Positions 272-16,061 of a DNA stretch of 64,000 bases are shown piece after piece. The notes beneath the pieces were generated by a model. That model saw nothing but the letters and a program-made list of their open reading frames with translations, made no database searches and was not told where the DNA came from. Source of the stretch: an uncultured Poribacteria bacterium. GTDB taxonomy: Bacteria; Poribacteria; WGA-4E; WGA-3G. The DNA lies in NCBI GenBank assembly GCA_951812525.1, contig OX638316.1, forward strand, positions 3,776,506 to 3,840,505, written 5' to 3'. Position numbers and translations under genes: made by a program. Position 1 is the first letter of the stretch; each line of letters begins with the position of its first letter.

Positions 272-1519
272 TTAATGTGCGCCTTTACGAGCATTACATT
301 CCCTACAAAGTGTTTGAACATTATCAAGTGTTGTTCGCCCACCTCTACTATGAGGAATTATATGGTCAGCTTGCATTTCTTCAAATCCAATTTTGTTTTT
401 ACACACTTGACAGGTTTCATTGTCCCGGCGCCAAATCACTTTTCGCTCGTCTTGAGTAAAAGAGCGTTGAAGGTCTTTTGGTGTCAAATTTTGAGTGTCT
501 TTGATAAATCGTCTTATGTACACTTGATGACGGGTTTCAATATTTGGTTTTGTGCCTCCTGAACGAATAAATGCATCGATATAATCATATAAATCTCTAT
601 CCCAGCAATCTTTACCTGAAGAAAGCAATTCACTAGGATCAGATATAGCTGCCCGTCTATCTATCTCAAAGGCGACGTAAAAGTCAGCAAAATCGGCTTC
701 ACGATCTCTAATAACGTATAGCTCATCCATTTTTGAAATCAGCAAATACAAATCTACGAAGCCCCACTTAATATCCATTTCTGGAGGACGATCTTCCAAA
801 ACTTTTTCCAAATATTTCAGAAGACGTCTAACTTTTTTCGCAACTTGACTGTTGTGATCGAAATTTTGGTTGTTTCTGTACATTTTTGTTAGACTTGGAG
901 CTTTGACATCTGTTGGTCCTTGCGCAATTTCCAAGCAGGTCACCACTGCGGCTAAGTCGTGCCACTCAAATCTCTTTCCAGGAAAGTGAGTTAATGGAAA
1001 TACACGGTGATTTTCCCCTAGATCCGCTATAAAGTCTCGCATATTACCTGGCATAGCATTTCGTTTTTCTACGGGATTTAGTGCTATACCCTCTTGTAGT
1101 CTTAAAAAAAGATCTCGTATTTCTAAGTCTGATGCATTTTCAACTTCAACGATATTAAGTTCAAATAAAGCAAATCGATCTTGTACCTCGCTTGATAATT
1201 CAGAGAATAGCTTATCTGATAAATCTCCAAAATCAAGTATATCTTTTGATATATCCCCCAACATATATTGATTGTCGTGGAAATCCCAAATTGCATTGAG
1301 TCTTTGCTGTCCGTCAACAACTTCGTGGTCGTACTTACCATCAGTAGATGAGCGGAGATAGAATTTTGGCATATCATATTGTCGAAGTATTGAATCTATA
1401 AGTAATTGTTTTTTTGAATCACTCCAAACCGGAGTTCGCTGGTATTGTGGTTTTGGGTTTATCCGTGGTTTCCTTCTGACAACTGTTTCAATTGTCCAAG
1501 TTCTAGGTCTGGTTTTCAT
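272..1519 (-). CDS. DUF262-HNH endonuclease, compact SspE-like effector
   Basis: A 415-residue protein. The N-terminal DUF262 (ParB-like NTPase) domain carries the motif DGQQR at residues 69-73 within EVVDGQQRLNAIWDF. The C-terminus (residues 370-415) is a zinc-type HNH nuclease: CQVC, then ADHIIPHSRGG, LDNV and CRECN. SspE, the restriction effector of SspABCD-SspE phosphorothioation defence, also joins a DUF262 domain with DGQQR to a C-terminal HNH-type (DUF1524) nuclease, but is considerably longer. Here the middle is shorter and the nuclease is a classical CxxC...CxxC HNH. An upstream in-frame TTG would add six residues; I prefer the ATG at 1519, which has GGAG upstream. The gene lies 46 bases after the sspD-like gene. 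A type IV GmrSD-like restriction enzyme is the alternative. Confidence 0.8.
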   Translation of the reverse strand: MKTRPRTWTIETVVRRKPRINPKPQYQRTPVWSDSKKQLLIDSILRQYDMPKFYLRSSTDGKYDHEVVDGQQRLNAIWDFHDNQYMLGDISKDILDFGDLSDKLFSELSSEVQDRFALFELNIVEVENASDLEIRDLFLRLQEGIALNPVEKRNAMPGNMRDFIADLGENHRVFPLTHFPGKRFEWHDLAAVVTCLEIAQGPTDVKAPSLTKMYRNNQNFDHNSQVAKKVRRLLKYLEKVLEDRPPEMDIKWGFVDLYLLISKMDELYVIRDREADFADFYVAFEIDRRAAISDPSELLSSGKDCWDRDLYDYIDAFIRSGGTKPNIETRHQVYIRRFIKDTQNLTPKDLQRSFTQDERKVIWRRDNETCQVCKNKIGFEEMQADHIIPHSRGGRTTLDNVQTLCRECNARKGAH

Positions 1520-1565
1520 AAATCTAAGACACTCCAAATTATAAAAAATCTGTTCTACACAAATA

Positions 1566-2447
1566 TCACTTATGGCAAATCAAACATGGCTCCTCATCAT
1601 CTTCATCATCAAGTACCTCAGTGAGGGTTTCAGCTGCGGTAAAGATTTGCATCAGAGTTTGATTCGGTTTGGTCATTTTCTTCTCCGCTATTGCTTTTTT
1701 CTTATCTTCTATTGCTTTTTCAGTATTTGCTTTGATCTCTGCTATCCGTTCTGGTTTTGACAATTCTTCTAGGCTTTCACCCTGACACCATGTGAACAGT
1801 TCTCCAGTCTTTGAGTGTGGATTGGGTTTTTCGTATTCCTTAGCGAGTTCAAAGAGATCGGGGTGCTGCTCCAATAGCCCTACCCACTCGGATTTACGTT
1901 GGAAGAAACAGAAGTAGCACCCAGAACGCGTCCGCCAATTATAATAGTCAGGTAAACCGACACCACTTTCTTCCAGAATTCGGTAGACACCCTCTTTGGT
2001 GATGCCATCTTCTTTGAAGGGGTATTTGGGTTCAATGTTATGAAGCGAGGAGATTTTTGGAGGTTTATAGCCGACACGATCTTCGTCGGCACGGATAGCT
2101 ATGTAGTGATAAGCTCTGTCTTTGCCGACATATTCCTCAAACGGTTTAATTTTTAGGTCTACAGTACACCAGCGTACTTGCGAGGATGGAAGCAGGCCTT
2201 TGTATAATGTTAGCCAATGATCGAAATCTCGATTCTTGTTGGGGTCAGGATCCATGTTGAGACGAACAATCGGTTTGCCGAGAAATGCCTCTAACTTATT
2301 CAAAAACTCATAAGTCTCCGGCAATTCCTTACCAGTATCGGAAAAGAAGTATTCCATCTCAGGCACTCTGTCCCGCATGTAGACAGCGAGCGCAGAACTG
2401 TCTTTGCCTCCAGAGAGGCCGAGCAGATGGCGGACCTTTTGTTCCAT
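1566..2447 (-). CDS. sspD: PAPS-reductase-fold sulfur-insertion protein (SspD/DndC-like)
   Basis: A 293-residue adenine nucleotide alpha-hydrolase of the PAPS reductase family. The PP-loop SGGKDS is at residues 12-17. Cysteines at C94 (RWCT) and in GCYFC (C177, C180) are candidate Fe-S cluster ligands, as in DndC. The C-terminus ends in an extra CLICHK pair. In Dnd and Ssp systems this enzyme activates the DNA backbone phosphate with ATP and mediates sulfur transfer. AGGAGG stands just before the ATG. It sits between the SspC-like ATPase and the DUF262-HNH gene on one strand, which favours SspD over a metabolic CysH. Assignment to SspD rather than DndC rests on the DUF4007 gene next door and the absence of DndD/DndE. 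Confidence 0.82.
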   Translation of the reverse strand: MEQKVRHLLGLSGGKDSSALAVYMRDRVPEMEYFFSDTGKELPETYEFLNKLEAFLGKPIVRLNMDPDPNKNRDFDHWLTLYKGLLPSSQVRWCTVDLKIKPFEEYVGKDRAYHYIAIRADEDRVGYKPPKISSLHNIEPKYPFKEDGITKEGVYRILEESGVGLPDYYNWRTRSGCYFCFFQRKSEWVGLLEQHPDLFELAKEYEKPNPHSKTGELFTWCQGESLEELSKPERIAEIKANTEKAIEDKKKAIAEKKMTKPNQTLMQIFTAAETLTEVLDDEDDEEPCLICHK

Positions 2448-2531: not shown

Positions 2532-5500
2532 TTATTTATCCTCTTGCATCAATTTTTGCGAGATTCGTGCTAAAACCGCAAGGCGGAAGTCCGGATTACT
2601 CTTTTTATCGATTTCATCAAATACCTGCTCAATTGCATGTTCCAATTTATCTGCCTGTTCTTCAGCGGTTGAAGGCAGAATAACCACCTGCTCTTGTTCA
2701 GGTTGATTGGGTCTCGTAATGCCGATCCGAATTGGCTCGCCTGCTGATGATTCAGTATGTTTCCATTTTTCATAAGACACTGCTTCAAAATGCCGAAATT
2801 TCCTTGCGAGTTGAGAAAGATTGCTCTCAAATTGTGCTTTATCCAAGTCTACCCACGATGCAGGAGATTTTTGGGCAAGGTAGGTTGCGATTGCCTCAAG
2901 CCAACTTGTGAAATCGAGTCCATCGCTACAAACGTGCATTAGAAATCCTCTGAGGTGCGTCTCAAGTGCTACCGCTAATAGTGGTTTGGATCTGGAGATC
3001 AATTCTGCTCGAGGTTCTTCCTTGGTTGATGTTAAATTGAAGGCTTTTACTAGCAGCTGCTCAATGAAATTCAACAGGACTTCGTAAGCCTGTTCTAACT
3101 CGGACAGAGCCTCTTGCAGTGTGGTGAAAAAGTCCGAAACAACCTTTGTATCTGTTGCACTTTCAATACCGAAGGCAGGGAATCCGAATGCTTCAGGCAA
3201 CTGATTAAAGAGGAGTTCGTCGGGTTCACGCGCATTCAGGACAGCTTCACGCAGATTTTTTGAATAATCATTTAATTCTGTTGTTAGCAGTGTGTATTTT
3301 GGAAGTTGTGCTATAGAGTGTATAAGCGGTGTGACGACCGTCAACAAGTCAGGGGCTTCGACAGCCTCTGATTGATTTAGGACTTGCGAAAATTTTGTAA
3401 ATAGATCGGCACGGATACCTGCTATCTGAAATCGCTTCAGTTCAAAGTTTTGTGGTGCTTTAAGAAGTCTTTCAAAGACCGGCATTGACCATTCTGGTAT
3501 GAAAGAACCATTCTCATAGAGAGCAATTTCTGTTTTATAACAGCACATCGTAGCACATAAGAGAATAGGCAGTGGCTCGCGACGCAGACCGAGCGGCGGT
3601 GCCATTAAACGTTCATAGAGTTGAAGAACAGGTCGTCGTTCGCCTTCACAAGTTTCAAGAAACGCCTCAATCGCATTCCATGTATATACTATTCTATTTT
3701 CATCATCTGGTTTGGGCGGATGGAATCCCCATACGCCTGCAACTTCGCGGTGTATTCCTGTATTCCATAAAATGGAGCGATAAATGCTCATTTCAGCCGG
3801 ATAGCGAGTGATACCGAGATTTTTTTGATTTCCGTTTTCAAGCATCGCCTGAATTAGTTTCCTCCGTGCGGTTGTTACAGCACTTGAGGTTTTCCGTCGG
3901 TTGATTAGTTCATTCCGGATGATAGGAGTCTTATTGTAGACGGTATCGCAGATTTCTGAAAGATACGCATTTCTCGTACGCTGGGAGTTAATATCTACGG
4001 GTTGTCCTTTGTGATACCACGTGCAAGTATCTTTACCGGCTCCACCAAAGATTTCTACTAACCTGTTGAATGCTGCCCGTTCTGCTTGGACCTGCTGTAC
4101 TAAGAGTTCATTTCTCGCTACTGAATCGCCTCCTAACTCGGGTGTGTTTTCGGCAACCCAACGTAAACTTGCGAGTTGAGTGACGGCATCTTGAAGTGTG
4201 CCAATAGCACGTGGAATTGCGATCAATACCTGTTGACGGTTTTTGCAGTCAATGTTGCTTGCTTTTTCAATGAGTTGCTTAAACTCGTCTATGTTTAAAG
4301 GGAGTGCGTAAAGCACAAGTCCGTCTGCATCGTTAAGAGGGACGTCCAAATTCGCGTCAAAGTTTTCAAGATCGGTATATTGAACGACAAAGTAACGCAG
4401 CGTTCCGGTTTTGAATAGATGTCGTCGTGCCACGAAAGGGCGGGTCGGTAAATAACGCTGTAGGTCTGTGGCAAGGGCAACTTTCGTGTCAATGTGCCGT
4501 TCTGCCTCGCGGAGTTTTGCCTCAATGTCAACGTCACTCCCTTGCCAAAGGGCATAAGTCTTATTGTAACGGCGATAGATAGTGATTGAGCGTTTTTTCA
4601 GAGCGTTAAGTGTTATCTTAAATTCACTATCGAAGGCTTCTGTTTTATCATATAAGGCATAACGGAGCAGCTGTTCTGAAGCTTTCAGATTTGGAATCAC
4701 TTCGCCTACAATGCTGAGGACACCTATTGTTTTAATTAATTTAACTTCCATAGCAGAGGGGTCTGCCAGTCGACTTATTGCTGATTCAATTTCTGCCCAC
4801 ATTTTGCCGTTGCGTGAAGCATACAACCGATTTCCCATATTGATATTGAGATAATCGTACAAGTTCGCAATTGAGAACATCGGCAGCACACCTCTGTTGT
4901 AATGCTGACCGGTAAGGAAATCTTGGAGTCCATGAGGTTCGCTTGAGCTGAGAAAGGCAAACAGAGAACGTTCGTTCTGCGCAAATCGACGGAAGATCGA
5001 GTCTATGACAAGAGCAACCGTCGGATGAAGTGGCAGGCAGTTCCTCATAAGTTTACTAAATTCGTCATCCGTGAGTTGGTTTGGCTTGAGATCGAATTCA
5101 ATGCGGGGAGACAAATTTGTTTCTTCGTTTTCTAAAGTCTTTCCAATAGCAGATCCAACTAAACGGAGCACCTGCTCTGTAGGTTCTACGAAGGCTATAT
5201 CTTCAAACCGTCCCTGAACTTTTGCCCACTCTTCCTGTTGTGATTTGGCTAATTTGTTCGCATATTGTTCAAAAGCTTGATGTAGAATCGTCACTAAAAG
5301 CAGTGGAGTCTGGTCACTGCGTGTAGCAAATTCAGCAAGGGTTTGCAGGACGAACACGTCGCCTTGTACAGGATGCTGTGCAGCGTATTCAAGAAATTTG
5401 CCAAGTTCGTCAATCACCAGTAACAGTCCGTGTCCACCATTTTTCTTAATAGCGCGCGTTGCCGATTCAAAAAGAGCAGTGATTTCTGATGCTTGTGGAG

Positions 5501-6014
5501 GCGTGTCGTTTGTTGCGGTTTTGAGTTGCTTTCTGATTTTCCGCTGCAGGGAACTTGAAGACGGAATCCCGAAACTCTTGAGTCCGTGTTCTAAGCCACG
5601 CAGAAGGGCAGTCGGAAGTGGTGCCCGCTCTCCAGAGATTAGCACCGGGCAGAAACCTGATGAAGATTGACCATTACCGTTTGTGTTCATAAATCGTTCG
5701 TATAATGGAATATCTCCATGTTTCAATAGTTCTAAAGCCTGTTGAGTCGTTGAAGCGTTAGGATCTCCGAGTAGCTTTGCCGAAAAGAGCGCGAAAGCCG
5801 ATTTACCCGATCCGTATGGACCTGTGAGCGACCATGCCTTTGAGGTAGTTTCATTTTCAAGTGTTGCCATGACGCGCGACAACATCTCTCGCGCCGTAAC
5901 GGTCAAAATATATCCATCTAAGGCGTTTTCTGTATAGAAATCGCGTTCCAAATGAACTGAACGCTGGAAACGCCCCTTAACATGGAAAAGATCTGACAAT
6001 CGGACGTTATCCAT
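2532..6014 (-). CDS. sspC: Large P-loop ATPase of phosphorothioation cluster (SspC-like)
   Basis: An 1160-residue P-loop ATPase. Walker A GPYGSGKS lies at residues 65-72 and Walker B LLLVIDELGK at 197-206. The long remainder has no second domain I recognise; it is mostly helical with a charged C-terminus. It overlaps the DUF4007 gene by 8 bases (6007-6014), so the two are translationally coupled. In Ssp systems the SspC ATPase works with the nickase SspB and the sulfurtransferase SspD during DNA sulfur modification. The similarity to BREX BrxC-like ATPases is only general (N-terminal P-loop and length); no BREX methylase or phosphatase gene is present. GAGAGGT precedes the ATG. Confidence 0.72.
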   Translation of the reverse strand: MDNVRLSDLFHVKGRFQRSVHLERDFYTENALDGYILTVTAREMLSRVMATLENETTSKAWSLTGPYGSGKSAFALFSAKLLGDPNASTTQQALELLKHGDIPLYERFMNTNGNGQSSSGFCPVLISGERAPLPTALLRGLEHGLKSFGIPSSSSLQRKIRKQLKTATNDTPPQASEITALFESATRAIKKNGGHGLLLVIDELGKFLEYAAQHPVQGDVFVLQTLAEFATRSDQTPLLLVTILHQAFEQYANKLAKSQQEEWAKVQGRFEDIAFVEPTEQVLRLVGSAIGKTLENEETNLSPRIEFDLKPNQLTDDEFSKLMRNCLPLHPTVALVIDSIFRRFAQNERSLFAFLSSSEPHGLQDFLTGQHYNRGVLPMFSIANLYDYLNINMGNRLYASRNGKMWAEIESAISRLADPSAMEVKLIKTIGVLSIVGEVIPNLKASEQLLRYALYDKTEAFDSEFKITLNALKKRSITIYRRYNKTYALWQGSDVDIEAKLREAERHIDTKVALATDLQRYLPTRPFVARRHLFKTGTLRYFVVQYTDLENFDANLDVPLNDADGLVLYALPLNIDEFKQLIEKASNIDCKNRQQVLIAIPRAIGTLQDAVTQLASLRWVAENTPELGGDSVARNELLVQQVQAERAAFNRLVEIFGGAGKDTCTWYHKGQPVDINSQRTRNAYLSEICDTVYNKTPIIRNELINRRKTSSAVTTARRKLIQAMLENGNQKNLGITRYPAEMSIYRSILWNTGIHREVAGVWGFHPPKPDDENRIVYTWNAIEAFLETCEGERRPVLQLYERLMAPPLGLRREPLPILLCATMCCYKTEIALYENGSFIPEWSMPVFERLLKAPQNFELKRFQIAGIRADLFTKFSQVLNQSEAVEAPDLLTVVTPLIHSIAQLPKYTLLTTELNDYSKNLREAVLNAREPDELLFNQLPEAFGFPAFGIESATDTKVVSDFFTTLQEALSELEQAYEVLLNFIEQLLVKAFNLTSTKEEPRAELISRSKPLLAVALETHLRGFLMHVCSDGLDFTSWLEAIATYLAQKSPASWVDLDKAQFESNLSQLARKFRHFEAVSYEKWKHTESSAGEPIRIGITRPNQPEQEQVVILPSTAEEQADKLEHAIEQVFDEIDKKSNPDFRLAVLARISQKLMQEDK

Positions 6015-6951
6015 AATACCTCTCTAAAAGTTCCATCGGGTTTAAATCGCTCCGTCGATAAACCTGTTTTAAACCTTCGCTTTCACCGTATTGCAATGCG
6101 CTGTTGGTGAGTTTTTCAAGGGATTCGAGATACATAGCCATTGTGTCTTCGTCTAATCTAAAAATTCGTCCAGGACTTAACGGTGCGTACATCAATTCTG
6201 AGAACGGTAATGTATCTTTTTCATAGAAACGAGCAATCCAGAACGCCACCAGTGTTGCTGCAAAGATTTCAATGGGTAGTGTCTCTTTTTCACCTCTCTG
6301 AAATTCATACCCCTCGCCATCTGGCAATTCGATGATTAAATTGAGTTCAACAAGTGGACAATCAAATGTCTCTTCAGCTACGGCTGCATTAGAGTGATAG
6401 CGTGAATGGCAATAGGTTCGGATAAAGCAGTTGACATCCCGTTGAAGCGTGTTGGTGGAGACAGGTCGCATGGACTCTTTCTGCTGCCTTGCCCACTCGT
6501 ACATCCCTTCTTTGAATGTAGATTGTGTAAATTGATTCCTCTGTAAAATATTAAACGCCCAATACCATGCTGTTGCTTGATTGATATTGGTAGCGATTTG
6601 CCAATGAATCAGCCACAAAGTGGCAGGATCATCAAGGTACGGATCAAATCCATCTTTATTGTCAAAAATAGTTTTGCCGAATTCTGTTGGAACAAATCTG
6701 CCGCGTTGTTTGGTATCTGCTCTGATCAGGTCCGATACTTGGCACCAATGTCGGATAGAAGCAACCATATTTTTCCCAACCCCTAAGGTAACAGAAGCAT
6801 GTTCTGATGAAAATACAGTCGGATCTTCTGTGACAGCATCAACCCCTTTTTTCAGCCATGTATACCGAAATGGAAAGGTCTGATGTCCTGAGAAGGAGGG
6901 ACTCACCAAATATGGTGAAGTTGTATGTTCGGCGATTAGAAAATTCTCCAT
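6007..6951 (-). CDS. sspB: DUF4007-family protein (SspB-like DNA nickase)
   Basis: A 314-residue protein of family DUF4007, recognised by FSGHQTFPFRYTWLKKG near the N-terminus and LGVGKNMVASIRHWC about 35 residues later. From established work on SspABCD, the DUF4007 protein SspB nicks DNA during phosphorothioate installation. The open frame extends upstream to 7119, but that leader is hydrophobic and unlike the family. The ATG at 6951 gives the expected N-terminus and has a TATAAT box 7 bases upstream, which places the likely transcription start on or next to the ATG. It is the first gene of the cluster and overlaps the ATPase gene by 8 bases. Confidence 0.78.
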   Translation of the reverse strand: MENFLIAEHTTSPYLVSPSFSGHQTFPFRYTWLKKGVDAVTEDPTVFSSEHASVTLGVGKNMVASIRHWCQVSDLIRADTKQRGRFVPTEFGKTIFDNKDGFDPYLDDPATLWLIHWQIATNINQATAWYWAFNILQRNQFTQSTFKEGMYEWARQQKESMRPVSTNTLQRDVNCFIRTYCHSRYHSNAAVAEETFDCPLVELNLIIELPDGEGYEFQRGEKETLPIEIFAATLVAFWIARFYEKDTLPFSELMYAPLSPGRIFRLDEDTMAMYLESLEKLTNSALQYGESEGLKQVYRRSDLNPMELLERYYG

Positions 6952-6958
6952 ACAACTT

Positions 6959-6987
6959 ATTATACGATAAATAGTAGAAGAACGCAA
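6959..6987 (-). promoter_or_regulatory. Putative sigma70 promoter of the Ssp-like operon, leaderless
   Basis: On the minus strand TTGCGT (6987-6982), 17 bases and TATAAT (6964-6959) are followed by only 7 bases before the ATG at 6951. The -10 box is perfect; the -35 box matches only in its TTG. Transcription would begin at or beside the start codon, so the message would be leaderless. Confidence 0.5.
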
Positions 6988-7397
6988 CACAATTTTACAG
7001 AAAAAGTTACGAACATTTACTTTCCATTTTTTACCGCAATTTTGAACGATTAAAACCAGTAGAAAGGATTCATTCAAGCACAAGAAAAAATTCGATAATC
7101 CTGCAAAGAGCAGCCTCAATTAGAAAGGCACATTATCCTGAAAATCTTCAAATCCTGTAAATCCTGATTCAGACGAATTATAGTTGTTGGTTAACCGAGA
7201 AGCGGGAACCTCTTTTAATTTGATTCACGGAGAAGAGGATTTTTCAACGTTGTGAACCCGCGTGATACCTATGCTGAGAAAACGCTCCGTGAAGCCTCCG
7301 TGAATTGCGCTGAAAATCGACGACAAAAGTACTTCTTGAAGGCGCGCTGTGGGTTGCAGCCATATTCCAACGAGAAATGCATAAACGAACTTAAACG
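6988..7397. other. Intergenic region between SspB-like and TIR genes
   Basis: About 410 bases without a convincing gene. The frame open from 6951 to 7119 is an unlikely extension of the DUF4007 gene. The region contains one copy of the AAATCCTG/ATTCAGAC repeat (listed separately) and a stretch around 7220-7320 with two TCCGTGAA words. I see no RNA gene. Confidence 0.5.
7133..7174 (+). repeat. AAATCCTG / ATTCAGAC interspersed repeat, copy 1
   Basis: Several ATCCTG words spaced about 8 bases apart, ending in TCCTGATTCAGAC. The same ending occurs near 11190 and 24150, and as TCCTAATTCAGAC near 16215, always in this orientation and between genes. Confidence 0.65.
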
Positions 7398-9890
7398 TCA
7401 ATTCCTGTCTCTTGGTAGTTTATAGGAGTATCTAATGTTCAGCAAGGCACAAACGGATTGTTCGATGCGTGCGGGGCTACGATGTGTATTCATATAATAC
7501 TGTGTCTCTAATGACAATACTCTCTGCAAAAAAAAGTCGTCATGTCTATTTAATAACTCTTCCAAGTCTTGTCTGATGCCGTTTGTGAGTTCTTGTACGC
7601 TATCTAAGTGATTAAAATATCCGATAAGATCGTACGCCGGTGTTGATTTCTGTTGAACAACTTCATTAACTACCCCTCGAATCCCAGGGACATTTATAGA
7701 ACTGACGATTAGCTCAACATTCGCCATTGTCCACAAAAATGAGAAGTATCGGATAAGTTGTTTGATTTCTTCACTGCTGAAGTCCGGGAACTTGCTCTGG
7801 ACATACCGTGCTATACGAGTTATCTGATCCTCGTCCAGAAGGAGAAATTGAACAATACGTAAGCCGCTGTCCGCTACAGTTTCAATAACCTTTCTAATTT
7901 TTGTCTTTTCCAAACTACCGTATCTATTTCGGAGAATTTGTCCCATAATTTCGTTGTTCTTCAAGATTCGATAGATATCGTTTAACGGGTGTTTATCTAA
8001 TGGGTGTTCATCTATCAATTCTTCCAAATCCTCTTCCGTTTCAGTCAGATTTTCCTTAGTGTCACGAACATCTCTGGATTTGTTTCTTTGTTCTTCTCTA
8101 TCGGGAGATGATATGTCTTTGGGGAGGGCTTCAAGAATCTTGTTAAAACCGCGAGTCTCGTCTGGTGTTAGTCTCGCAGGATTGAATCTGTCTAATGCGT
8201 GTGTGATCCTCAGTAGAATGTTGTCTATTATATTATTGTCGTTTGTATGGTGGATGATGAACAAGAGTGTCAAATAGTTTAATTTGACATGACTCCGTTT
8301 ACACATCTCTTTAATTACATCTTCATTTTCCCTATCTTTCTTTGACAGAAACCCTCCCAAGAAAAAATAGTATATATATGGCATCTTAAAATTACCTTCA
8401 GTGGAGATAATGCCATAATCATCATCAATCAACCTGCTCAGAATTGCGTCTTCTATGATAAAGTCTACCCTATATTCTGCTACAAACTTCTTGAAATCTA
8501 ACTGCGTTGCCTCGCGTGATTTACTGTTCTGATAGATTTTGAACGCCAGTTTTTCTGCGAAATTATAGCATGTATTAATAGCGGAATCCTCAAGAGGTAT
8601 CCCTGCCTTGCGAAGCGTAGCAACAATCAGGACCTGATAGCAATACCCGTATGAAGTTATAGACAAATCGTCGGGCATAAATCCTTCGTATGTTTGCAGA
8701 ATAGACAACACAAAAAATGGGTACCTGGGCACAATTTTCTTCGATGTGATTATGGAGTTGACATCGTTTTCAATCCGATCTACAAGTCCATCTGGGACAG
8801 GTTCATTCCTGTTGGATAGTGCTAACCTTTTCCTAATTAACCGTTCTTGTTGTCGGTGACTCAAGGGTTGGATTTCCATTACATGAAAGTCGGCTAAGCG
8901 CTTCTCGTCTCTAAAAAACGCATAGAAAATATCAGTGGATAGCGTAATGATTATGTTATCAAAAAGATCTCTTGCTAATTCAATTAGCTCGATTAAACGA
9001 GGGACTGACGATAGATTATCCAATATAAGAATCTTACCCTCCTGTTGCTTCCAAAGCGAATAATCGCCGCTAAATTGACGGTAATATGCATCACTAAAAA
9101 CTTTTTCTTGTGGCTTTCGAGATACTTCCTGCAGATCGATATGCAAAACAGGTGTTGATGAATCTTCCGCTAAAGAGAGATATAGATACCGTCCCAGAGC
9201 GGTTTTTCCACTCATATCTGCTCCGTGAATAAGGGTGTACTTCTTTGCTAATAGGTCTGCTGGATCTATAATTTTCTCCATTTCCAATCGACTGCTCTTC
9301 GATTCTGAAGAGAAACAGAGCAGCGTCGGGAAAACGAAAATATCTTGAAGTCTGATATCATCTTCTGCCGCAAAATCGGTTTCTTCCGTTTCCCTTATAT
9401 AGTCTAATTTTGGAATGAAGATGTTTCTCAATTCATTGATAACCTCCTTGATGCCTTCATACACTTGCATCCACGCGGTATCTTCGTTATCGAAATTGGC
9501 AACAGCTGTTCCATCTTCAGGTAGTGCTTTGACATCATCATTGAGGAGTAAGTCTTTCCATGTACAATCCCTCACGATGATTGGAATACGGAAAATTAAC
9601 TTTCCTTCATCAGAGAGTTGCTTCGCATGTTTCCATTCTCTCAAGCATTCATCGGAGTCAATAAAATCTGGGCTGAGGAGGAATACAAAAATATCTGCTT
9701 CGTCCATCTTTTCCCTAATCTTGCTGGAAATAGGTTGTCCGGGAAGGATGTTTAGGTCTGACCACTCCTGTAACAGTTTTTCTCTTCTAAGTTGAGAAAG
9801 TGCCGTGTTCATATTTCTCCGGTATCGAGCGTCTCTATGAGAATAACTGTAGAAAAGGTTAGCGTGAAAAGTATTTCGGGCAGTTTTCAT
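7398..9890 (-). CDS. TIR-domain STAND NTPase, probable NADase-type defence protein
   Basis: An 830-residue protein. Residues about 10-155 form a TIR domain: FYSYSHRD at the first strand, ILPGQPIS in the BB-loop region, and SPDFIDSDECLREW, where E85 aligns with the catalytic glutamate of NAD-cleaving TIR domains (S-x-x-C-x-x-E). A P-loop NTPase follows with Walker A HGADMSGKT (222-230) and Walker B ILILDN (286-291), as in STAND/NACHT-type sensors. The last 450 residues show no recognisable TPR, WD or LRR repeats, so the sensor part is unidentified. AGGAGA precedes the ATG. It is encoded just upstream of the Ssp-like cluster on the same strand, consistent with a defence island. NAD depletion on phage sensing is inference. 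Confidence 0.75.
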   Translation of the reverse strand: MKTARNTFHANLFYSYSHRDARYRRNMNTALSQLRREKLLQEWSDLNILPGQPISSKIREKMDEADIFVFLLSPDFIDSDECLREWKHAKQLSDEGKLIFRIPIIVRDCTWKDLLLNDDVKALPEDGTAVANFDNEDTAWMQVYEGIKEVINELRNIFIPKLDYIRETEETDFAAEDDIRLQDIFVFPTLLCFSSESKSSRLEMEKIIDPADLLAKKYTLIHGADMSGKTALGRYLYLSLAEDSSTPVLHIDLQEVSRKPQEKVFSDAYYRQFSGDYSLWKQQEGKILILDNLSSVPRLIELIELARDLFDNIIITLSTDIFYAFFRDEKRLADFHVMEIQPLSHRQQERLIRKRLALSNRNEPVPDGLVDRIENDVNSIITSKKIVPRYPFFVLSILQTYEGFMPDDLSITSYGYCYQVLIVATLRKAGIPLEDSAINTCYNFAEKLAFKIYQNSKSREATQLDFKKFVAEYRVDFIIEDAILSRLIDDDYGIISTEGNFKMPYIYYFFLGGFLSKKDRENEDVIKEMCKRSHVKLNYLTLLFIIHHTNDNNIIDNILLRITHALDRFNPARLTPDETRGFNKILEALPKDISSPDREEQRNKSRDVRDTKENLTETEEDLEELIDEHPLDKHPLNDIYRILKNNEIMGQILRNRYGSLEKTKIRKVIETVADSGLRIVQFLLLDEDQITRIARYVQSKFPDFSSEEIKQLIRYFSFLWTMANVELIVSSINVPGIRGVVNEVVQQKSTPAYDLIGYFNHLDSVQELTNGIRQDLEELLNRHDDFFLQRVLSLETQYYMNTHRSPARIEQSVCALLNIRYSYKLPRDRN

Positions 9891-15002: not shown

Positions 15003-16061
15003 TCACATTTGCGACGGAAGTGCTTGAGGGACCGGAATAACGTAACTGCGAATCGTACAGTCATCCACAATATCCGTTTCCACGCGTCGCTCCGAATTTT
15101 CACGATAGTCGAACACGACATAATAGACATCTGTCGCGCCTTCCAGTTTAAGATACGCTGCGAGTTGCCGTTTGCCTGCCTCATAACCGCGTTCGCTTCG
15201 CCAAACCTTGGTTTCGACAATATATATCTGTCCGTTGTGTGAAATGACGAGGTCGGCTCTACCTCTTCCAGTTGGGACTTCTAAGTGCATAGTAGCACCA
15301 ACGATTTTCACAAACTCGTCAAGGTATGCGAAGAGGAGGTATTGCCCAACGAATTCTTTTGGTGTATCCGGCACTTGGAGTATCCTGTAGCCAGCGCGCG
15401 CAATAAAGTCCTTAAAATTTTCGATGAGTGTAGGCATCTCAAGTTGTTCGGTCGGTGTGATGTATTCCGAAAACTCAGCAGGACCATCTTGCGGGAAGTA
15501 CTCGTCCTCAAGTCCATTTATGAGAGGTAGGAATGCCTGCAAAACTCGATGTAGATAGATTGGATTCAGGATTTGACACATACCATCTTCATCCGCTCCG
15601 ATGATACCGTAGGTCGCTAACTCGCTGATAATGTCATTGTCGAGGTTGAAGCGTCTACTTTCTTGGTAAAAAGCGATGTGCATCAGCATCTTTTCAAAGT
15701 CTGGATCTCTGCGGACGTTTGTAATAAGGTGAAAGATATTCGTGTTTCGCTCCGTCAAGAGTTGTTCGTGTGCTTGTGAGAAGTGGGACATCTGAATTGT
15801 CTCAGTTTTCGGAATATCCAGTTCCTCCGTGAGGATCTGAGCGAACCTATTGACAAGGAAGGGTTGTCCCGCTGTCTGTTTGTGAATCATCTCCACGACT
15901 TTGGGCGCGAATGGTTGTCCAACTTCGTCAGTGTATTGGGCAAAAAGTACGATATACCGTCCTTCTTTAACGCGACGAATGTAATCGGCGAGTTCTTCAC
16001 TGCGCGCAACGACGTAGTTATCTTTGGAATTGACAGGACCTTGCGTTCCAAATCGTCTCAT
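15003..16061 (-). CDS. PD-(D/E)XK nuclease-fold protein with ATPase core deleted
   Basis: A 352-residue protein related to the AAA-ATPase plus PD-(D/E)XK family (DUF1703-type). The C-terminal nuclease-like domain has GRADLVIS then YIVETKVW, the D...ExK active-site signature. The N-terminus reads GRYIVLFA at residues 34-41, where family members continue with a Walker A loop. Here it jumps straight to QYTDEVGQPF, a segment that normally follows the whole ATPase core, and then AGQPFLVNRFAQIL. So Walker A and B are missing by an apparent in-frame deletion near base 15938. The rest of the frame is intact, so a shortened protein may still be made. The comparison with full-length relatives is from memory. 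Confidence 0.7.
   Translation of the reverse strand: MRRFGTQGPVNSKDNYVVARSEELADYIRRVKEGRYIVLFAQYTDEVGQPFAPKVVEMIHKQTAGQPFLVNRFAQILTEELDIPKTETIQMSHFSQAHEQLLTERNTNIFHLITNVRRDPDFEKMLMHIAFYQESRRFNLDNDIISELATYGIIGADEDGMCQILNPIYLHRVLQAFLPLINGLEDEYFPQDGPAEFSEYITPTEQLEMPTLIENFKDFIARAGYRILQVPDTPKEFVGQYLLFAYLDEFVKIVGATMHLEVPTGRGRADLVISHNGQIYIVETKVWRSERGYEAGKRQLAAYLKLEGATDVYYVVFDYRENSERRVETDIVDDCTIRSYVIPVPQALPSQM

Follow-up and report, generated by a model that had tools for sequence, protein, structure and literature searches.

What does a large protein with a TIR domain and a STAND NTPase do when it is encoded beside a DNA phosphorothioation cluster, and which part of it would act as the sensor? The locus lies in a sponge-associated member of the Poribacteria, within a window of 64,000 nucleotides corresponding to bases 3,776,506–3,840,505 of a single-contig 5.06-Mb genome; positions below are those of the window. 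The gene, here named TIR-DS8, is one unbroken ORF of 830 codons at 7398..9890 on the minus strand. A reading on the plus strand was rejected, as there is no ORF there. The interval given in a preliminary description of this DNA therefore holds, and the strand, which that description had left out, is minus. The window gene is the one full-length copy in the genome and its single member of the DS-8 family. It encodes, in order, an N-terminal TIR domain, a STAND/NLR-type NTPase module and an all-helical C-terminal domain. With a probability of roughly 70%, we read TIR-DS8 as an NLR-like anti-phage receptor that joins the DS-8 chassis (STAND NTPase, winged helix and helical C-terminal sensor) to a TIR NADase effector, with the neighbouring Ssp cluster as a separate layer. 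This reading is carried by the domain architecture, the conservation of active-site motifs, the homology of the chassis to DS-8 and the defence context.

The TIR domain spans residues 8–115 (9546..9869, minus strand) and has the expected alpha/beta pattern in the predicted model, with a Pfam TIR_2 match over residues 13–112 that lies above the cut-off (E 4.4e-13). The putative catalytic residue is Glu85 (codon 9636..9638, minus strand; SDEC-LR-E motif), equated with the NADase glutamate by its motif. It lies within SPDFIDSDECLRE, that is S-P-D-F-I-D-S-D-E-C-L-R-E, of the general form S-x-x-F-x-x-S-x-x-C-x-x-E, and is kept in all alignable TIR-bearing relatives except two Streptococcaceae (Streptococcus and Lactococcus). 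A TIR fold with a catalytic-type glutamate is thus present, in agreement with the apparently intact NADase-type TIR of the preliminary description, and the domain is a probable NAD-destroying enzyme. TIR domains are not scarce in this setting. Long ORFs with a TIR-domain match abound in these Poribacteria genomes, and a second TIR protein of the same genome (G000:C1:3443009-3443437, contig L002) has its TIR fused to many TPR-like repeats.

TIR domains can also produce signalling molecules instead of depleting NAD+. The main rival to NAD+ depletion is that activation leads the TIR to produce an ADP-ribose, cyclic or modified, by which a separate effector is switched on, as in Thoeris; we consider this unlikely for this gene. 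The best PADLOC TIR match of the domain is ThsB (E 2.5e-27), and in the Vibrio-plasmid and P2-like-prophage homologues a small membrane-protein gene sits directly beside TIR-DS8, upstream in L035:11394-11984, L095:365-943 and L096:6856-7434 and downstream in L109:2543-3415. The encoded proteins have two to four predicted membrane helices, those of L035 and L096 are related (31% over 93 aa), and all are possible partner effectors. A TIR gene of the P2-like phage AC1 that has transmembrane partners is known to defend (PMC9122126), which also counts for signalling. In the window, however, no membrane partner gene lies beside TIR-DS8, which has about 530 bp of non-coding DNA upstream and sspB downstream, and a ThsA-like gene is not adjacent. 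Membership of Thoeris itself was rejected on the PADLOC results and on the adjacent genes, which are sspBCD, an HNH gene and an FGE-sulfatase gene.

The NTPase module following the TIR domain is of the STAND/NLR type. Its STAND/NACHT-type nucleotide-binding domain covers residues 191–345 (8856..9320, minus strand), with invariant G223, G228, K229 and D291, Foldseek matches to RPP1, NLRP3 and Avs5, and weak Pfam matches to AAA_14 and nSTAND3, the latter below its own cut-off. The P-loop reported in the preliminary description is intact. Both Walker A (GADMSGKT, residues 223–230, 9201-9224, minus strand) and Walker B (ILILD, residues 287–291, 9018-9032, minus strand) vary little or not at all within the family. 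After the P-loop, residues 346–530 (8301..8855, minus strand) make up the helices and winged helix of an NLR-type module in the predicted model, a segment on which Pfam nSTAND_NTPase4 scores above cut-off in relatives and weakly in the window protein (E 0.028).

The C-terminal 450 residues had been described as an unidentified sensor region with no recognisable repeats. No TPR, WD40, LRR or HEAT match was found by Pfam search of the C-terminal half, but the region is partly identifiable, as residues 346–530 belong to the NLR-type module, and it can no longer be called unidentified given that residues 175–819 match the anti-phage family NF053861 (DS-8; NCBIfam, E 1.1e-99) over model positions 329–994 of 994. 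Beyond the NLR-type module lies a family-specific all-helical domain at residues 531–830 (7401..8300, minus strand), the putative sensor. The structure prediction suggested earlier for this region yields a fold made entirely of helices (AlphaFold2 on residues 529–830, 302 residues alone, mean pLDDT 78.9) but provides no solved structural relative. A fold search of the PDB with these 302 residues returned nothing at E<=0.001, and a profile search of the PDB found no sequence relative of the domain. Its signature, E-h-h-G-Q-h-h-R-N-x-x-G-S at residues 647–659 (7914..7952, minus strand), is shared by the proteins of Poribacteria, Vibrio and Firmicutes and by E. coli DS-8. Position and homology make the domain the expected sensor. 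Identity to the homologue in the Poribacterial genome G056 is 57% in the C-terminal domain and 54% in the NTPase. Such similar rates suggest that it is not an obviously diversifying or hypervariable sensor.

DS-8, a single protein, was validated as an anti-phage system in E. coli; mutation of its metallophosphatase or NACHT site abolishes defence, its phosphatase substrate has not been identified, and the main text of the paper does not mention TIR (DeWeirdt, Mahoney and Laub, Science 2026, PMC13092281). The family match is therefore to an anti-phage protein, not to one with a non-defence role. The NACHT/STAND core and C-terminal domain of DS-8 align end to end with residues 175–819 of TIR-DS8, family signature included, and HHalign of Poribacterial TIR-bearing cores against phosphatase-bearing cores gives a probability of 100% over 637 columns (E 3.9e-56). 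BLASTP against an E. coli chromosomal DS-8, WP_032203427.1, finds 26% identity over residues 179–821 (E 4e-43) and no match before residue 179, that is, none in the TIR region. Unlike DS-8, which has an N-terminal metallophosphatase, the Poribacterial protein begins with TIR_2. It scores 334.6 bits against a curated cut-off of 790, whereas WP_032203427.1, annotated as an 'anti-phage protein', passes with 966.7. TIR-DS8 is thus not a member of the curated DS-8 equivalog, and a low score is expected if the N-terminus has been swapped. On these alignments TIR-DS8 is best described as an effector-swapped DS-8, with the same sensor-switch chassis and a TIR in place of the metallophosphatase. By analogy, TIR-DS8 very probably works like DS-8 with another executioner.

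The same core recurs with further N-termini. PADLOC PDC-S60 (PDLC05050) matches residues 146–714 (E 1.8e-35) over profile positions 184–776 of 906, and so shares the core of TIR-DS8. The N-terminal ~190 positions of that model match DUF4062 proteins instead of the TIR of TIR-DS8, in keeping with a match that begins only at profile position 184. According to a recent report, DUF4062 proteins are TIR-like NADases and assemble on phage portals (PMC13174449). A TIR N-terminus on the DS-8 core was found in seven genomes (that of the window, G055, G056, G057, G062, G064 and G237), on a Vibrio plasmid and on three prophage contigs (L095, L096 and L109), and a divergent TIR on Streptococcus and Lactococcus plasmids. 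Cores with a metallophosphatase occur in Paenisporosarcina, Jeotgalibaca, G163 and E. coli, as well as on several prophage contigs. Two changes of the TIR/phosphatase label are needed on the tree of the cores, but a topology in which each version arose once is not rejected (AU p 0.14). The family requires one effector exchange at minimum, and multiple swaps are not claimed, as one origin each is compatible with the tree. The window protein, a phosphatase-type core and the prophage TIR- and phosphatase-type proteins were searched against 50,697 INPHARED phage records without a match, although DS-8-core proteins are present on IMG/VR prophage contigs. On one IMG/VR contig (L117:1-8139) a metallophosphatase-type DS-8 gene follows genes resembling a type I restriction-modification set.

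The whole-protein AlphaFold2 model, built on 28 family sequences (mean pLDDT 80.7, pTM 0.75), places a TIR, a nucleotide-binding domain, a helical and winged-helix segment and an all-helical C-terminus in succession. Its top PDB matches by Foldseek are the plant TIR-NLR RPP1, NLRP3 and the SIR2-STAND protein Avs5 (E 3e-8 to 7e-6). TM-scores of the multi-domain model are low in this search (0.2–0.3), probably as a result of domain movement. RPP1, the best fold match (7dfv, E 3e-8), has the same order of TIR and NLR NTPase, but TIR-DS8 has no leucine-rich repeats and identity is about 13%. Avs5 and other Avs proteins share the layout of effector, STAND and helical region (9jap, 9nc9), yet TIR-DS8 carries another effector and another C-terminal family, with no Avs or Pfam repeat match. 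The preliminary description had suggested clustering with Avs/STAND families. The STAND core matches DS-8, and membership of Avs (AVAST) was rejected for want of an Avs match in PADLOC or a TPR in Pfam. The TIR-STAND-TPR proteins of P4 satellite hotspots are likewise single genes with a TIR, a STAND NTPase and a helical C-terminus. They defend E. coli and have swappable N-termini (Rousset 2022, PMC9122126), but contain recognisable TPR repeats, whereas no repeat model matches the C-terminus of TIR-DS8, which is of the DS-8 family.

TIR-DS8 lies directly upstream of sspB, sspC, sspD and an HNH gene, all in the same direction. Its Ssp-like neighbours, as named in the preliminary description, are real, with sspB, sspC and sspD all present by PADLOC. 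The sspB gene (DUF4007; 6007..7119, minus strand) matches Pfam DUF4007 (E 1.9e-89) and PADLOC SspB (E 7.6e-100). Its true start is likely the ATG at 6951, from where the domain begins, which leaves about 450 bp to TIR-DS8. It is followed by sspC (AAA+ ATPase; 2532..6014, minus strand; PADLOC SspC E 0) and sspD (PAPS-reductase-like; 1566..2447, minus strand; PADLOC SspD E 4.3e-115). The SspE position is taken by a DUF262/GmrSD_N and HNH protein (272..1537, minus strand; Pfam GmrSD_N E 1e-15, HNH E 2e-14) that has a 60% identical counterpart in the same position in another genome (G012). Its best PADLOC match is NsnA, not an SspE model. No strong cysteine desulfurase that could be an adjacent sspA was found next to the Ssp locus; several are encoded elsewhere in the genome and could serve the cluster. 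About 5 kb upstream of TIR-DS8, a 352-aa gene (15003-16061) has weak PD-(D/E)XK/NERD/Cas4-like matches in its C-terminal third and could be one piece of a larger ATPase-nuclease.

TIR-DS8 is linked to phosphorothioation (PT) genes in four Poribacteria, the window genome, G056, G064 and G055. The window order is TIR-DS8, sspB, sspC, sspD and HNH. In G056 a truncated sspB, a frameshifted sspC and sspD precede an HNH gene for restriction of phosphorothioated DNA (PT-HNH; NF045808, E 2.6e-91) and TIR-DS8, with gaps of 5 and 45 nt, the latter between PT-HNH and TIR-DS8. The same HNH gene (NF045808, E 1e-102) lies 43 nt upstream of TIR-DS8 in G055, while in G064 sspD, PT-HNH, TIR-DS8 and an sspB remnant follow in succession, read across two contigs. 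In 11 other Poribacteria genomes the NF045808 HNH gene is less than 1 kb upstream of sspB by position subtraction (for example L103, L104 and L107), so the window TIR-DS8 takes the place of the HNH gene in an Ssp locus that is common in Poribacteria. These 11 genomes carry their own Ssp genes, placing a PT reader beside a PT writer.

Such linkage raises the question of whether TIR-DS8 is part of Ssp, as a dedicated guard or back-up of the PT machinery triggered when Ssp is disabled by phage or when DNA intermediates, unmodified or PT-marked, build up. For Dnd loci, suicide back-ups of the PT system have already been suggested (PMC10853773). As sspB usually occurs once per 5-6-Mb genome, the chance of each linkage within 5 kb is very roughly 1 in 500, and PT linkage persists among relatives whose sequences diverge at 34-40% of residues. 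However, the tree groups the four linked genes in a single clade (100/99), so the linkages are not independent events and the association may have arisen once and then been kept. In G056 and G064 sspB is truncated but the TIR-DS8 gene is intact or open, and TIR-DS8 thus appears not to depend on a working Ssp. In G057 and G062 TIR-DS8 is unlinked to Ssp although sspB is present elsewhere in both genomes, and homologues in other bacteria sit in other contexts. A guard relationship is possible on this evidence, and we judge it improbable. The layered immunity proposed in the preliminary description, with TIR-DS8 and Ssp as its layers, is plausible from the gene arrangement, and the simplest reading is two separable defences that share one locus. 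A more elaborate arrangement is conceivable but unlikely. Here a composite Poribacterial PT immune operon would unite a PT reader nuclease, the Ssp writer and TIR-DS8 as NLR guard; the conserved helical domain at the C-terminus would represent a new sensor fold monitoring the integrity of the modification machinery or a conserved phage product, and TIR, DUF4062-like and metallophosphatase domains would be interchangeable executioners.

The unlinked homologues also have defence neighbours. In G062 TIR-DS8 lies between hmaA and hmaB of an Hma system (L088:1482-18607; HmaA, HmaB and HmaC E 4.5e-167, 4.2e-115 and 8e-74), near which an HEC-01A-like ATPase gene was also seen. In G057 a C5 methylase gene and a DUF262 gene lie close to it. 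Beside the phosphatase version in G163 there are type III restriction genes and MkoC-like genes, and other homologues accompany restriction genes on plasmids or occupy prophage loci. The consistent absence of defence neighbours, named in the preliminary description as an outcome that would speak against its proposal, was thus not observed. In two Poribacteria a 289-293-aa gene follows TIR-DS8 (L086:11386-12255 and L090:8873-9754; 72% identical), and by eye it is Rpn-transposase/nuclease-like.

STAND proteins include regulators in multicellular bacteria. On that basis TIR-DS8 might be a STAND regulator with a role outside defence, in signalling or the control of transcription for instance, and the gene is indeed chromosomal, with housekeeping genes beyond about 10.4 kb. 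Homology to the validated anti-phage DS-8, recurrent defence neighbours, carriage on plasmids and prophages and a patchy distribution make this very improbable. The defence reading is preferred because of the DS-8 homology, the active-site motifs, the fold matches to RPP1, NLRP3 and Avs5, and the occurrence of homologues in defence islands, plasmids and prophages.

For TIR-DS8 as an anti-phage receptor, we propose a model in which a phage-derived trigger would be bound by the C-terminal domain, leading to nucleotide exchange and oligomerisation of the STAND module. The clustered TIR domains would then cleave NAD+, and its loss would halt the cell ahead of phage release as abortive infection. 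The neighbouring Ssp cluster, with which TIR-DS8 often travels, would act as a separate defence layer.

TIR-DS8 shows the DS-8 chassis to be a general sensor-switch that carries different executioners. As the output of the TIR version, NAD+, is readily measured, TIR-DS8 gives direct access to the question of what the common C-terminal sensor recognises. Its recurrent placement at PT loci also makes the idea of a suicide back-up for DNA-modification systems testable.
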